A stretch of 64,000 bases of DNA from Candidatus Poribacteria bacterium (GTDB taxonomy: Bacteria > Poribacteria > WGA-4E > WGA-3G). The notes under the pieces are model-generated. The model was not told where the DNA came from. It searched no databases and saw only the letters and a program-made list of their open reading frames with translations. Of this stretch, positions 2,620-54,390 are shown piece by piece. The position numbers and the translations under genes were made by a program. The number at the start of each line of letters is the position of its first letter. The first letter of the stretch is position 1. The stretch is taken from assembly GCA_022821965.1 (NCBI GenBank), contig JAJECN010000015.1, positions 118,785 to 182,784 on the forward strand. The letters run 5' to 3'.

Positions 2620-3756
2620 TCAGTCCTTCAAAACTTCCGCCTGCACCGGATTTATGTAGCACTGATAATGCCGTTCGACATCTGCCTCCGGCGTAATACC
2701 TTCGTGGACATAAACCCCAAATCGCAAGCGGAAACGGTCACCTTCCAATTCATCAGGCGGATGGTGGAGGATGCTCATCTGTTCCGGTACAGCGATTTCC
2801 CCGAAAAAGCCCGGATGTTCAGCGTTTTCTGGGTGATCAAACAGGGCGATACCGTCCACGCCATCTCCCACTGTGCCGCCTAAATCGCACCACCGCGCGC
2901 GTTGATGATGCACCGCTGTCCTGCCAATCTGTCCTTCAGAATTTTCAACGTGCCCTTTCTCTGGGATACCCATTGACGGATTCAAACGCGCAACACAGAG
3001 AAATTGCCGATCACCGATATCCAGTGGCGGTGTTGTTTCGTGCGTAATTTCCAGAAATCGCCGCGTATCCTCCGCATACCATACCCGCGCGGTCCGCGTC
3101 TCTGTCATGATAACTTCACCATCTCCCTTGACATGGATCAGGTCTTCGACAAATTCAGCGTAAACGTTCCCTTCAGTGATTCGGACAAAGCGTTGGTGCA
3201 ACATTTTCCCGCAGGGACCATAAGGTGGCTCATCCCAATCAGACCAGATATTCGCAGACCCACCTTCACCGTGCCCTCCGTAGGCGAGGTAAAGTCCTGT
3301 GTGATGCGGATGGTCGCCACCGCCAGCCCCGCGGACCACAGTTCCATGATTCGCATTGATGGGCCAAAAGTAAGGTTTCCAGACACCAAGAAAGTTGTAT
3401 CGTGCGAATACAGCGTCATCGGCAGAAATGAGCAGATGCGCGGGTTTCTGTTCGATTTGATAACGGACTTTGGGGGACGGCTCGTTGATCTGTCGGATCG
3501 CGTAATGTGCTGATGTCCCCGCCGGAAGTTCGCCTGTCTGCCATGCAAGCTCGCGTAGCGTCGGCTCGAATTGACAGGGGACATCCTCACCGGAGACCTG
3601 ACCGTCTGCATCAGTTATGGACATCGCAAGTGCTGAAGTTCCTTCTTGCCAATCGGGAAAGTAACGTTTCGGCTTGAAACGCAAGCGGACGAGGTCATTC
3701 TGTCGATTGACCGAACCCGCCTCAATTTTGATGATTACACTTCGATTTTGTGTCAA
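2620..3756 (-). CDS. PmoA-family (DUF6807-like) protein
   Basis: 378-residue protein of the family that Pfam named methane oxygenase PmoA (also DUF6807), a misnomer: these proteins are not methane monooxygenase and are generally found in carbohydrate-utilisation regions. Supporting blocks are HPHHTGLYLAYGGHGEGG, SDWDEPPYGPCGKM and the late blocks GIALFDHPENAEHPG and RFRLRFGVYVHEG. The start is TTG 3756, preceded by AGGAG at 3768-3764 with a 7-base spacer. It lies downstream of a PhyH gene on the same strand (118 bases apart). No signal peptide is visible. The function is unknown; a beta-sandwich sugar-related role is plausible by family context only. Confidence 0.82.
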   Translation of the reverse strand: MTQNRSVIIKIEAGSVNRQNDLVRLRFKPKRYFPDWQEGTSALAMSITDADGQVSGEDVPCQFEPTLRELAWQTGELPAGTSAHYAIRQINEPSPKVRYQIEQKPAHLLISADDAVFARYNFLGVWKPYFWPINANHGTVVRGAGGGDHPHHTGLYLAYGGHGEGGSANIWSDWDEPPYGPCGKMLHQRFVRITEGNVYAEFVEDLIHVKGDGEVIMTETRTARVWYAEDTRRFLEITHETTPPLDIGDRQFLCVARLNPSMGIPEKGHVENSEGQIGRTAVHHQRARWCDLGGTVGDGVDGIALFDHPENAEHPGFFGEIAVPEQMSILHHPPDELEGDRFRLRFGVYVHEGITPEADVERHYQCYINPVQAEVLKD

Positions 3757-3874: not shown

Positions 3875-5095
3875 CTACCAGCTCTGAATAAAGTCTTCCA
3901 CCTCGAAATTCGCTGGCATGTCTGTTAATTGATAGCGCATCACACGGGATGTTCTGTCCGGAACAGACCGGGCAATCTCTGTCTCGATTTTCTCGTATAG
4001 CGTTGAGAACCGTTGCCAGATACTTTCGGCATCTTCGGCGGAAAAACGACGGGCGAAATCCTCATAGAGATGGAAGTTGAGTCGATGTGCGGAGATTTCC
4101 GCGATGCGCTCTTCAATGGGAAGTTTACTGACTTCAGGGTCTTTGAGTTTGCGAACCTTGACCGCTAACTTTGAGAGGAATACGACTGCGACCATGCGTT
4201 CCTCTTCGCCGGGGTGCAACTTCGCCAACCCATCTTGAAAACCGTCAGCGTCCTTGTTACAGATGGCGTGAAAGGTGGTCTCAATCACATCGGATTGCTG
4301 CTGGTGAAGTTGGAAAAAATGTTCAAATCGGGTGCGAGCCTCAGCCGGAAGGTACTGGGTGAATTCCAGATTCCAATAAAAATGATCAACGATTGGATAC
4401 GAATCCCCACCGAAAGCGCGATAGCCAAGGTGAACAGTCCGTCGCAATTTTGTGCTATAGTTGCTGCCCCAATGCAAACCCATGTGGCTATAGACAACCC
4501 CATCGCCTGCTGAAAGTTTAATCGGGATCCCGCCGGGCATCGGTTCCTGTGCGCGGGTCAATAGATGTTGATGCTCCTCTGGCGTGTTTGGACGGCAATA
4601 ACTCCTTGGCACGAGCCAGAACACGCTATCGTCATAAAGCGGTATATTCCATTGGACATAGCCTGGTCCGTTTTTAACATAATCCATCTGCATCCCTTTG
4701 AGGGGTGCTTGTCCTGTTGGATCAATGTCACGATGCCAACTGGCGGGACCGTGGTCTTGCACCGGATTACACATCAGTGCCATCAGTGTGATCGCCGCTT
4801 CGGGTGCCCTCATGAGTTGCTGGCTCACACCGAGCGTGTTCTCATGCAGGCAGAATTCGATGGTGTTGGTAGTTGCTGCGTCAACGACCTCATCAAAAAA
4901 TACTCTCGGTTGTGCACTCGTTGTCCAAACGCCACCCGGCTTTTCGTCCGGTTTTCGTTCCCGTGCCCAGACCTTTTTTTGCTTCTCAACGAGGGTTTCA
5001 AAACTCGTCCTCAGCCCTTCCAACTGATCGGGCGGGACAACCTGTCGTAGCACGATATAGCCATCATCAATAAGTTGTTGTGGATCTACTTTCAT
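3875..5095 (-). CDS. Phytanoyl-CoA dioxygenase (PhyH) family protein 2, long form
   Basis: A 406-residue PhyH-type Fe(II)/2-oxoglutarate oxygenase. The triad is His121 and Asp123 in SWHRDID and His208 in LHWGSN; Arg218/219 is the probable 2-oxoglutarate anchor. About 130 extra C-terminal residues beyond the usual 270-300 form a helical extension rich in charged residues (from about residue 245 on). A 29-codon frame lies between its stop and the PmoA-family start, so the two genes are probably co-transcribed. The gene downstream of the secreted LamG protein shares its strand, 11 bases apart. The substrate is unknown. Confidence 0.87.
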   Translation of the reverse strand: MKVDPQQLIDDGYIVLRQVVPPDQLEGLRTSFETLVEKQKKVWARERKPDEKPGGVWTTSAQPRVFFDEVVDAATTNTIEFCLHENTLGVSQQLMRAPEAAITLMALMCNPVQDHGPASWHRDIDPTGQAPLKGMQMDYVKNGPGYVQWNIPLYDDSVFWLVPRSYCRPNTPEEHQHLLTRAQEPMPGGIPIKLSAGDGVVYSHMGLHWGSNYSTKLRRTVHLGYRAFGGDSYPIVDHFYWNLEFTQYLPAEARTRFEHFFQLHQQQSDVIETTFHAICNKDADGFQDGLAKLHPGEEERMVAVVFLSKLAVKVRKLKDPEVSKLPIEERIAEISAHRLNFHLYEDFARRFSAEDAESIWQRFSTLYEKIETEIARSVPDRTSRVMRYQLTDMPANFEVEDFIQSW

Positions 5096-7167: not shown

Positions 7168-8040
7168 ATGCTAATTCGCGGTGAAGACAGTGCTATTGAT
7201 CTCCCTTCTACACTAACGGAAGAGGAGAAATGGCACTATGATTTATTTGGCTATCTCGTGCTTCGGCAGGTGATTTCACCAGTAGAGGTAGGACGGATGC
7301 TTGAGATAGCAAACGGATGGTTTGCACACCCTGAAACCGTGCCTGAACCGGTGAATGTCACCCAAGATGAATACAGCGGCGTGTTGAACAATGTTCAGTA
7401 CGGTGATCGGATTTTCGAGCGGTTATCCCTCAATGAAAAAGTGATGCGGATTGTGATGGGTCTGATGTGGAATCGCCCAAGGCTCTTCAACTGTGCTCTC
7501 GTTTTACAGAGGCAACGTCCTATCTCTGAGAATGAGAAAGAGAGACTTCACCGCGATACCAGCGGTTTTGACTTCCCCGATGGATTCCACAATCCACACA
7601 ACGACTACCAAGCTAGGAGCGGACAGATCTATAGTAATTACGTCAACACCGCTATAACACTCGTCGATGTGCCGAAGGACAACGGCTTTATGTGCATCCC
7701 CGGCACACATAAATCACAAATTAAACTGCCGACGACGATTGATATTGACAACGAATGGGCACCCGCCATTACTTTTGAATTAAAGGCGGGAGATTGCCTT
7801 ATTTTCTCGTCTCGACTGATGCACGGCGCAAAATTTTGGAAGGTTGATTATCCACGCCGAGTCGTCTTCAATCGGTATCAATTCAGTTTCTACTTCAACG
7901 AAAACTATAACCTACCCATAGAAGTACACCGCCACTGCATTTCTGACGATCAATACGAGTTGGAGTCGGTCCAACGCAGCGAAAAGGGGTTCGCCAAACG
8001 GATCCTCGAAAAGATCGAAAAGGGAGAAGAGCTATGCTAA
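7168..8040 (+). CDS. PhyH family oxygenase 3 (canonical H-R-D)
   Basis: A 290-residue PhyH-type oxygenase with a complete metal triad: His128 and Asp130 in LHRDTSG, and His219 in LMHGAKFW; Arg230/231 follows at the expected distance for 2-oxoglutarate. A GGAGACAGT ribosome site precedes ATG 7168. Its last codons overlap the start of the next gene in ATGCTAA (8034-8040), which implies translational coupling. It aligns along its length with the next protein through EEKWHYDLFGYLVLR, NGFMCIPGTHKS and YPRRVV, so the two are tandem paralogues. The coupled pair may act together or form a heteromer (inference). Confidence 0.88.
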   Translation: MLIRGEDSAIDLPSTLTEEEKWHYDLFGYLVLRQVISPVEVGRMLEIANGWFAHPETVPEPVNVTQDEYSGVLNNVQYGDRIFERLSLNEKVMRIVMGLMWNRPRLFNCALVLQRQRPISENEKERLHRDTSGFDFPDGFHNPHNDYQARSGQIYSNYVNTAITLVDVPKDNGFMCIPGTHKSQIKLPTTIDIDNEWAPAITFELKAGDCLIFSSRLMHGAKFWKVDYPRRVVFNRYQFSFYFNENYNLPIEVHRHCISDDQYELESVQRSEKGFAKRILEKIEKGEELC

Positions 8041-8852
8041 CGCAAGAAGAGAAGTGGTACCTTGATCTACTCGGCTATTTTGTTGTGCGCGACGCTGTGC
8101 CAGAAGCGGATGTTGAGCTGATGAAAGCACAGATGTTTGCGTGGTACGAATGGGATGAGGCAGATTTCAAGCACCCCATGCGAATCAACGCGCCAGAGGG
8201 AAAGCCGTGGTGGGTCTATAACATGCATTACGGTCATGAAGCGTTCCAACGGCTCATCTTGAACCCAGAAATCCTGCGCGTCGCAACGGCATTGACGGGG
8301 AACTATCCGCGGGTTTTCGATGTCGTCGCGAATATCTGCTATCCCAATGCAGACGGTTTGGAACTACACGGCGGGCATAAAGGCTGGTTTAGAAGTCCAC
8401 ACCATCAATACCAAGTCGCCAACGATGAAATCTTCGCAAGTTTCTTCAATCTCTCGGTTTCGTTAGTCGATGTGCCACCCGGCAACGGGTTTGCCTGCAT
8501 TCCCGGAAGCCACAAATCCAACTTCCAGTATCCCGAGCACATCACAATGGACGATCCACCACCGATGGTCCACAATATCCCAGTAAACGCTGGCGACTTC
8601 ATCGTGTTTCTGCCGAACACGCGACACGCTGGGAGACGATGGAATCATGAGGCTTATCCCCGAATGACGGTGTTCTTACGCTGGGTCTATGCGAAGCAGT
8701 TTCATCACGCCGACTCGTCCCGGTGGCTTCCGTTTGATGCCCATAAGGACGAAATCCCAGAAGCACTTCACGAACTTGAGAGCCGCGACCACGGACAACG
8801 GAAGGCGTTGAATGAACGCATAGACCCGTTCAAAGTGGATATTCCTGAATAA
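8034..8852 (+). CDS. PhyH family protein 4 with H-G-G in place of H-x-D
   Basis: A 272-residue PhyH-fold protein whose start overlaps the preceding paralogue by 7 bases. Alignment with that paralogue places LELHGGHKGW (His112, Gly113, Gly114) over its LHRDTSGF, so the iron-binding aspartate is replaced by glycine. The distal His198 (TRHAGRR) and Arg210 (YPRMTV) are kept, as are NGFACIPGSHKS and the helix EEKWYLDLLGYFVVRD. Loss of this Asp is the known hallmark of Fe(II)/2-oxoglutarate halogenases (HxA or HxG), where chloride fills the site. It could equally be a non-catalytic partner of the coupled enzyme. The halogenase idea is inference. Confidence 0.85.
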   Translation: MLTQEEKWYLDLLGYFVVRDAVPEADVELMKAQMFAWYEWDEADFKHPMRINAPEGKPWWVYNMHYGHEAFQRLILNPEILRVATALTGNYPRVFDVVANICYPNADGLELHGGHKGWFRSPHHQYQVANDEIFASFFNLSVSLVDVPPGNGFACIPGSHKSNFQYPEHITMDDPPPMVHNIPVNAGDFIVFLPNTRHAGRRWNHEAYPRMTVFLRWVYAKQFHHADSSRWLPFDAHKDEIPEALHELESRDHGQRKALNERIDPFKVDIPE

Positions 8853-53559: not shown

Positions 53560-54390
53560 ATGCAGTTAAGTGAGAAGCAGCTCGCGCAATTCCGAAACAA
53601 TGGATACCTTGCCATCGAAGGATTTTTCGATCCCGTTGAAGCAAAAGCACTTCGACTGGAATTGGAACGGATTTACAACACTGAACTCGAAAACGGAACT
53701 GGTATCAATTGTGCAGTGCAAGCGGATGGAACCAAGCGCGACAATGAAGGTGAACGACAAAACCTGCAGGTAATTCCGCTCAATAACCGCAGCGACTTAC
53801 ACAAAGCACTGCCCTTTCATCCGAAGGTTGTCTCCGCCGTCCAGCAACTCATCGGTGATGAATTCATGTTGGAGTTGGATCAGGCGTTCTGGAAACCGCC
53901 TAAGGTCGGTATCGGCACGAGTTGGCACCAAGACAACGCTTACTTCAGAATCGCAGACCCGTTGCGAGGGACTGCTATGTGGATCGCTATCCACGATGCA
54001 AACGTTGAGAACGGCTGTATGCACGTCATACCGGGCAGCCATCGTGAGAGTTACGAACACTATCGCGACCCGCTAAGCGACCACCATATTCGGTGCGATC
54101 CGCCTGAAGAACGTGCTGTCCCGATCGAATTGAAAGCAGGTGGTGTGCTCTTCTTCTGCTACGGCGTGGCACACTGCACCAAGTCGAACCTCACTGATAA
54201 AGAACGGGCAGGCGTAGCACTTCACTTCCTCCACAACGATTTCGGCGGTAAAGAACTCTGGGAACGGAACAACACAACCAAACCGATGCTCCGTGGTCCG
54301 CTTGCAACCGGTGGAGAGGCCGAATTCGGCGAGAAATTTGAAGGCAGATGGGAAGAGCTCATGAACAATATACTCGCATCCGATCTGTAG
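53560..54390 (+). CDS. PhyH family oxygenase 5
   Basis: 276-residue Fe(II)/2-oxoglutarate oxygenase from ATG 53560 (an in-frame TTG lies two codons earlier). Triad His123 and Asp125 in SWHQDNAYF, His205 in VAHCTKSN; Arg216 in ERAGVALHF is the 2-oxoglutarate anchor. The motif NGCMHVIPGSHRE is typical. It resembles ectoine-hydroxylase-like and other general PhyH proteins more than the long-form PhyH 2. A LamG gene follows. Substrate unknown. Confidence 0.88.
   Translation: MQLSEKQLAQFRNNGYLAIEGFFDPVEAKALRLELERIYNTELENGTGINCAVQADGTKRDNEGERQNLQVIPLNNRSDLHKALPFHPKVVSAVQQLIGDEFMLELDQAFWKPPKVGIGTSWHQDNAYFRIADPLRGTAMWIAIHDANVENGCMHVIPGSHRESYEHYRDPLSDHHIRCDPPEERAVPIELKAGGVLFFCYGVAHCTKSNLTDKERAGVALHFLHNDFGGKELWERNNTTKPMLRGPLATGGEAEFGEKFEGRWEELMNNILASDL

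Follow-up and report, generated by a model that had tools for sequence, protein, structure and literature searches.

HygX, an Fe(II)/2-oxoglutarate (Fe/2OG) oxygenase of hygromycin B biosynthesis, is available as PDB entries 4xc9, 4xca, 4xcb and 4zpi, with iron (or nickel) and 2-oxoglutarate (2OG) named as bound in the entry titles, and a PNAS paper of 2015 reportedly linked its variant metal coordination to large substrates. An iron site of the type HxG...H is also present in human AspH, where a water molecule stays in the place of the carboxylate throughout catalysis and the enzyme hydroxylates without halogenating (PMC8252765, PMC13168262). In Fe/2OG halogenases, HxG or HxA is considered a hallmark and serves as a filter in genome mining (PMC11186838). 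Furthermore, the Fe/2OG paralogues TlxI and TlxJ form a heterodimer, in which the helper subunit TlxI has lost the Arg binding 2OG (PMC11880133). With respect to Poribacteria, a PhyH-family enzyme demethylating 2'-O-methyl nucleosides was described (PMC12709175), and their high number of PhyH genes is already known (PMC3909097); the part of the latter article that was available makes no mention of the carboxylate-free clade or of the HGG/HRD gene pair analysed below.

The HGG gene and its upstream paralogue

The DNA analysed, hereafter called the window, is a stretch of 64,000 nucleotides. It originates from a member of Candidatus Poribacteria, which are bacterial symbionts of sponges. The open reading frame at positions 8034-8852 encodes the HGG protein, whose translation contains GLELHGGHKGWFRSPHHQY and matches the PhyH profile PF05721 with 34.2 bits (cut-off 22). 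Features of the gene and of the paralogue preceding it are as follows:

7168..8040, + strand: coupled PhyH paralogue with canonical H-R-D, 290 aa (Pfam PhyH, 61.8 bits; directly upstream in all orthologous loci)
7549..7557, + strand: codons of the partner's iron motif H128-R129-D130 (invariant in 22 orthologues)
8022..8029, + strand: GGGAGAAG, Shine-Dalgarno-like site for the HGG gene, located inside the partner gene (from the sequence; similar site in loci L050 and L073-L076)
8034..8040, + strand: stop/start overlap ATGCTAA of 7 nt, with the HGG start over the HRD stop (from the sequence)
8034..8852, + strand: predicted PhyH-fold Fe/2OG oxygenase with H-G-G replacing H-x-D, 272 aa (Pfam PhyH, AlphaFold2, HygX as best fold match)
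8352..8354, + strand: codon of D107, candidate alternative ligand (only acidic residue tracking the carboxylate-free clades)
8367..8375, + strand: codons of H112-G113-G114, i.e., the first iron His and the Gly at the usual Asp place (alignments; invariant in 29 orthologues)
8625..8627, + strand: codon of H198, distal iron His (invariant in alignments and orthologues)
8661..8663, + strand: codon of R210, expected to bind the 2OG carboxylate (invariant in alignments and orthologues)

The canonical HxD...H triad is absent from the HGG protein, which has HGG...H. Alignment with the upstream paralogue places LHGGHKGW opposite LHRDTSGF; H112 (CAC, 8367-8369), H198 and R210, which we take to be the 2OG-carboxylate ligand from established knowledge of the fold, are common to both proteins, and only the Asp differs, with G114 (GGG, 8373-8375) in its place. 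Even in an alignment of 22 sequences including very distant PhyH proteins, H112, P157, G187, H198 and R210, and only these, stayed invariant, and the register is therefore regarded as correct, with no shift hiding another His-x-Asp site. The initial annotation, which had proposed that Gly114 replaces the iron-binding Asp while His112, His198 and Arg210 are retained, is thus borne out by both alignments. No other acidic residue clearly replaces the third ligand, D107 being the sole candidate.

Full-length orthologues at at least 90% identity were found in 33 of 38 genomes of the same genus, and one further genome carries a piece. The family's three remaining genera yielded none, and three genomes of another family within the same order encode an orthologue at approximately 75% identity. 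LHGGHKGW is kept in all distinct copies examined, namely 30 out of 30 same-genus sequences and the copies from the three genomes of the other family, so that the missing Asp is due neither to chance nor to an assembly error. Moreover, the median dN/dS of 0.041 (median dS 1.07) indicates strong purifying selection on the orthologues. Both G113 and G114 are the same in all 29 sequences compared, despite varying third codon bases, and with dN/dS so low the Gly residues are held by selection.

The HRD gene lies directly upstream of the HGG gene in all 30 same-genus loci analysed and also in the loci of the distant family, whose remaining neighbours differ strongly. The 7-nt overlap was kept in every case inspected, taking the form GTGTTGA, GTGTTAA or GTGCTGA (GTG starts) in distant lineages, where it is likewise preceded by a GGAGA-like site. 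Conservation of overlap geometry and adjacency across two families with different flanks points to translational coupling of the two genes and a joint function of their products. A Poribacteria-type pair with Poribacteria-like flanks was also observed on contig PBTO01000139.1 (L074), titled Gammaproteobacteria, which probably represents a misnamed or mis-binned MAG contig.

Relatives of the HGG protein and the carboxylate-free clade

Of the proteins with a solved structure, HygX is closest to the HGG protein both in the profile search and in predicted fold. The AlphaFold2 model, calculated from a diverse alignment, reached a pLDDT of 82.7 and a pTM of 0.87, with lower pLDDT values (58-68) around the HGG segment. 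When this model was compared with the PDB by means of Foldseek, HygX occupied ranks 1-2 (E 9e-14 and 6e-13, TM approximately 0.65), and HygX chains accounted for most of rows 1-23; further matches among the best 50 were SnoN/SnoK, proline hydroxylase, human PhyH, MysH and fungal oxygenases. In the profile search, HygX was matched at 3e-15, followed by EctD (1e-9), SnoN (2e-8), PhyH (3e-6) and SyrB2 (2e-4). Single-sequence searches with the relatives L010 and L110 also recovered HygX, at 4.6e-6 and 8e-15, respectively.

In one 5.7-Mb genome, approximately 134 PhyH-domain matches were counted, compared with 1 of 14 control genomes showing any match. The census of 138 PhyH domain rows, among which a few genes occur twice, comprised 107 rows with H-x-D...H...R, 11 with HxG, 6 with HxA, 2 with HxS, 1 with HxN and a few others. 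PhyH genes within the window include those at 1766-2578, 3875-5095, 7168-8852 and 53560-54387, and a DUF6807 (PF14100) protein is encoded at 2620-3756 on the minus strand, near several of them.

In a family tree built without the iron-ligand columns, all 20 HxG, HxA, HxS and HxN domains of the genome form one clade together with HygX, separated from the HxD proteins with a support of 99/98, or 96/86 after long branches were dropped and a full HygX homologue was added; HygX is placed in this clade without a fixed position inside it. Since all 20 domains belong to the HygX clade, the HGG type is, on the basis of these trees, old. The HGG protein itself combines membership in this clade with HxG as first ligand, the distal His and the 2OG Arg. 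The question raised by the initial annotation, whether the HGG clade is old and conserved, is accordingly answered in the affirmative, given that the motif is kept in all orthologues.

The carboxylate-free sequences include two sister clades, B (FHGG) and C (FHAA/FHAS/FHGS), and two HRD clades were distinguished, namely E, representing the partner, and D, a separate paralogue. Paralogues with H-C-A, in one case H-C-N, several of them in tandem, belong to the same carboxylate-free clade (L009, L013, L018, L019, L006), and an H-A-A/H-A-S/H-G-S clade with a shortened loop is conserved across Poribacteria families (L003 and L121-L129). Four viral-contig scans yielded no further relatives. A plasmid search using the HGG protein of the window as query gave no match, and its relatives, used as queries, retrieved a Streptomyces homologue of HygX and a Cupriavidus protein with HHG. 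Within the clade, two-His sites occur naturally in many versions (HGG, HAA, HAS, HGS, HCA, HCN) beside HRD relatives.

Regarding the direction of change, the HRD proteins form one group inside the carboxylate-free clade (100/98 in the first tree, 95/95 in the second) and have the HGG protein of the window as their sister (97/90 and 85/89), with clades B and C outside. Parsimony requires 3 changes if the Asp may be re-gained versus 13 losses if re-gain is forbidden, and a two-state model assigned a probability of approximately 0.98 to a common ancestor of HGG and HRD proteins without Asp. A tree in which HRD branches first in the 25-member subgroup was not rejected (p-AU 0.25-0.28), and re-gain is therefore favoured rather than proven. 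On these trees, in which sampling outside Poribacteria is thin, the Asp of the partner was probably re-gained. Because the HRD clade nests within the carboxylate-free clade, the initial annotation, which implied that the Asp was lost relative to the partner, probably had the direction the wrong way round. If so, the partner lineage would represent a natural reversal of a metal-ligand loss.

A single Asp loss in all other sequences, with the Asp retained in HRD, was also considered; the corresponding topology, in which the carboxylate-free rows form one clade excluding HRD, was rejected (p-AU 1.5e-47). Furthermore, an H-A-D protein nested among HGG proteins was noticed (L014:1480-2262), possibly reflecting a second, independent re-gain of the Asp.

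Proposed function and competing readings

It appears rather probable that the HGG protein is a competent two-His Fe/2OG oxygenase of a HygX-like subfamily, co-translated with its canonical HRD paralogue. Iron would be held by H112 and H198 alone and 2OG would be bound via R210, whereas the site opened by Gly114 may be filled by water, as in human AspH, or by a group of the substrate. The protein would accordingly belong to an old carboxylate-free PhyH subfamily with HygX as its solved representative, and we infer that it is active and performs hydroxylation-type chemistry. Since the genes are presumably co-translated, it is probable that the HGG and HRD proteins share a substrate, on which they work either as a heteromer or one after the other.

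A sugar or glycoside is a plausible candidate for this substrate, guessed from gene context. The clade B FHGG gene (L110-L115) is flanked by an FGGY sugar kinase gene on one side and a Methyltransf_16 gene on the other, and several genomes also have a sulfatase close by; in L073, the pair is located behind a GH32 enzyme, and the HygX homologue of Streptomyces sp. SAT1 is encoded among glycosyltransferase, epimerase and aminotransferase genes. In the window, no carbohydrate gene adjoins the pair, and no biosynthetic cluster was found around it.

A further possibility, which we hold only tentatively, is that the two proteins are the obligate parts of one oxygenase: the old open two-His site persists in one subunit, the carboxylate has been re-acquired in the other, and both serve one substrate, with cyclisation or halide transfer, rather than hydroxylation, as a possible outcome at the open site. 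In that case, one operon would hold both versions of the iron site.

Considerably less probable than the two-His oxygenase is a role of the HGG protein as a non-catalytic helper that completes the substrate pocket of the HRD enzyme or stabilises it, in the manner of TlxI for TlxJ. The strict gene coupling would fit such a role, there is precedent for Fe/2OG paralogue pairs that include a helper subunit, and TlxIJ was itself recovered in the fold search. However, TlxI lacks the 2OG-binding Arg, whereas the HGG protein shows no active-site loss beyond the Asp. Moreover, the carboxylate-free relatives of clades B and C retain His, His and Arg and adjoin no HRD gene in the loci examined. A single PhyH domain observed in the genome is clearly dead, namely the N-terminal half of L008, and it has lost both His residues and the Arg. 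Because these residues and Gly114 are invariant in the HGG protein, unlike in the dead L008 domain, the non-catalytic partner suggested by the initial annotation is the less likely assignment. The L008 protein itself (L008:448-2190, 580 aa) consists of two fused PhyH domains, with V-G-G, Q and K in the N-terminal and H-D-G in the C-terminal one, and resembles a built-in dead/live pair.

It is unlikely that the HGG protein is a halogenase, in which chloride would sit on the iron beside Gly114 and be passed to a substrate radical as in SyrB2, WelO5 and BesD. Such a function was proposed in the initial annotation from the HxG motif, which is permissive for it, and it would agree with the invariance of Gly114 and with the setting, as halides are abundant in sea water and sponge tissue. 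However, HygX, SnoN and EctD/PhyH-type oxygenases are nearest by sequence and fold, halogenases are absent from the best 50 Foldseek matches in the PDB, and SyrB2 was matched in the profile search over its C-terminal part only. The chlorinating-enzyme model TIGR01762 (NCBIfam, SyrB2 type) gave no match to the HGG protein at E<=1, and its score for the HRD partner was 16.6 bits at a cut-off of 226. Furthermore, the site is occupied by Ser, Asn or Cys-Ala in sister clades. A two-His 2OG oxygenase is favoured because AspH has HxG without halogenation and the chlorinating-enzyme model fails to match; HxG alone does not mean halogenase. The grouping of approximately 20 carboxylate-free PhyH domains of one genome with the oxygenase HygX advises caution in using HxG/HxA as a halogenase flag, and, in the HygX-like clade, the question of what makes an open iron site hydroxylate or halogenate becomes directly testable.

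Very improbable is a conventional 2-His-1-carboxylate enzyme with D107 as third ligand. In its favour, D occupies this column in clade A (29/29) and clade C (8/8), with D/E in B, and is mostly missing from the HRD clades. However, D107 lies five residues before H112 (the canonical ligand follows the His by two), is not clearly conserved across the wider HxG clade, and is not known to serve as a metal ligand in any relative.

Comparison with described systems

The preferred two-His oxygenase can be set against four described systems. Fe/2OG halogenases (SyrB2, WelO5, BesD, AdaV) share the HxA/HxG two-His motif with the HGG protein, but differ by the missing TIGR01762 match, their position outside the best 50 folds and the much weaker profile score of SyrB2. 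Human AspH likewise has a two-His iron site with HxG; it is not a member of the PhyH family and acts on EGF-like domains, so that the likeness is limited to the site.

HygX shares with the HGG protein the PhyH fold, the identical L-H-G-G, the distal His, the Arg and the clade. Its identity to the HGG protein is only approximately 18-20% and its substrate is of the hygromycin type, and the reaction therefore need not be common to both. The HygX-type locus L243 differs from the pair in being part of an aminoglycoside gene cluster and in having no HRD twin within the stretch examined. TlxI and TlxJ, finally, resemble the HGG and HRD proteins as two Fe/2OG paralogues encoded by neighbouring genes and needed together, but this system is fungal, and the 2OG Arg absent from TlxI is kept in the HGG protein.
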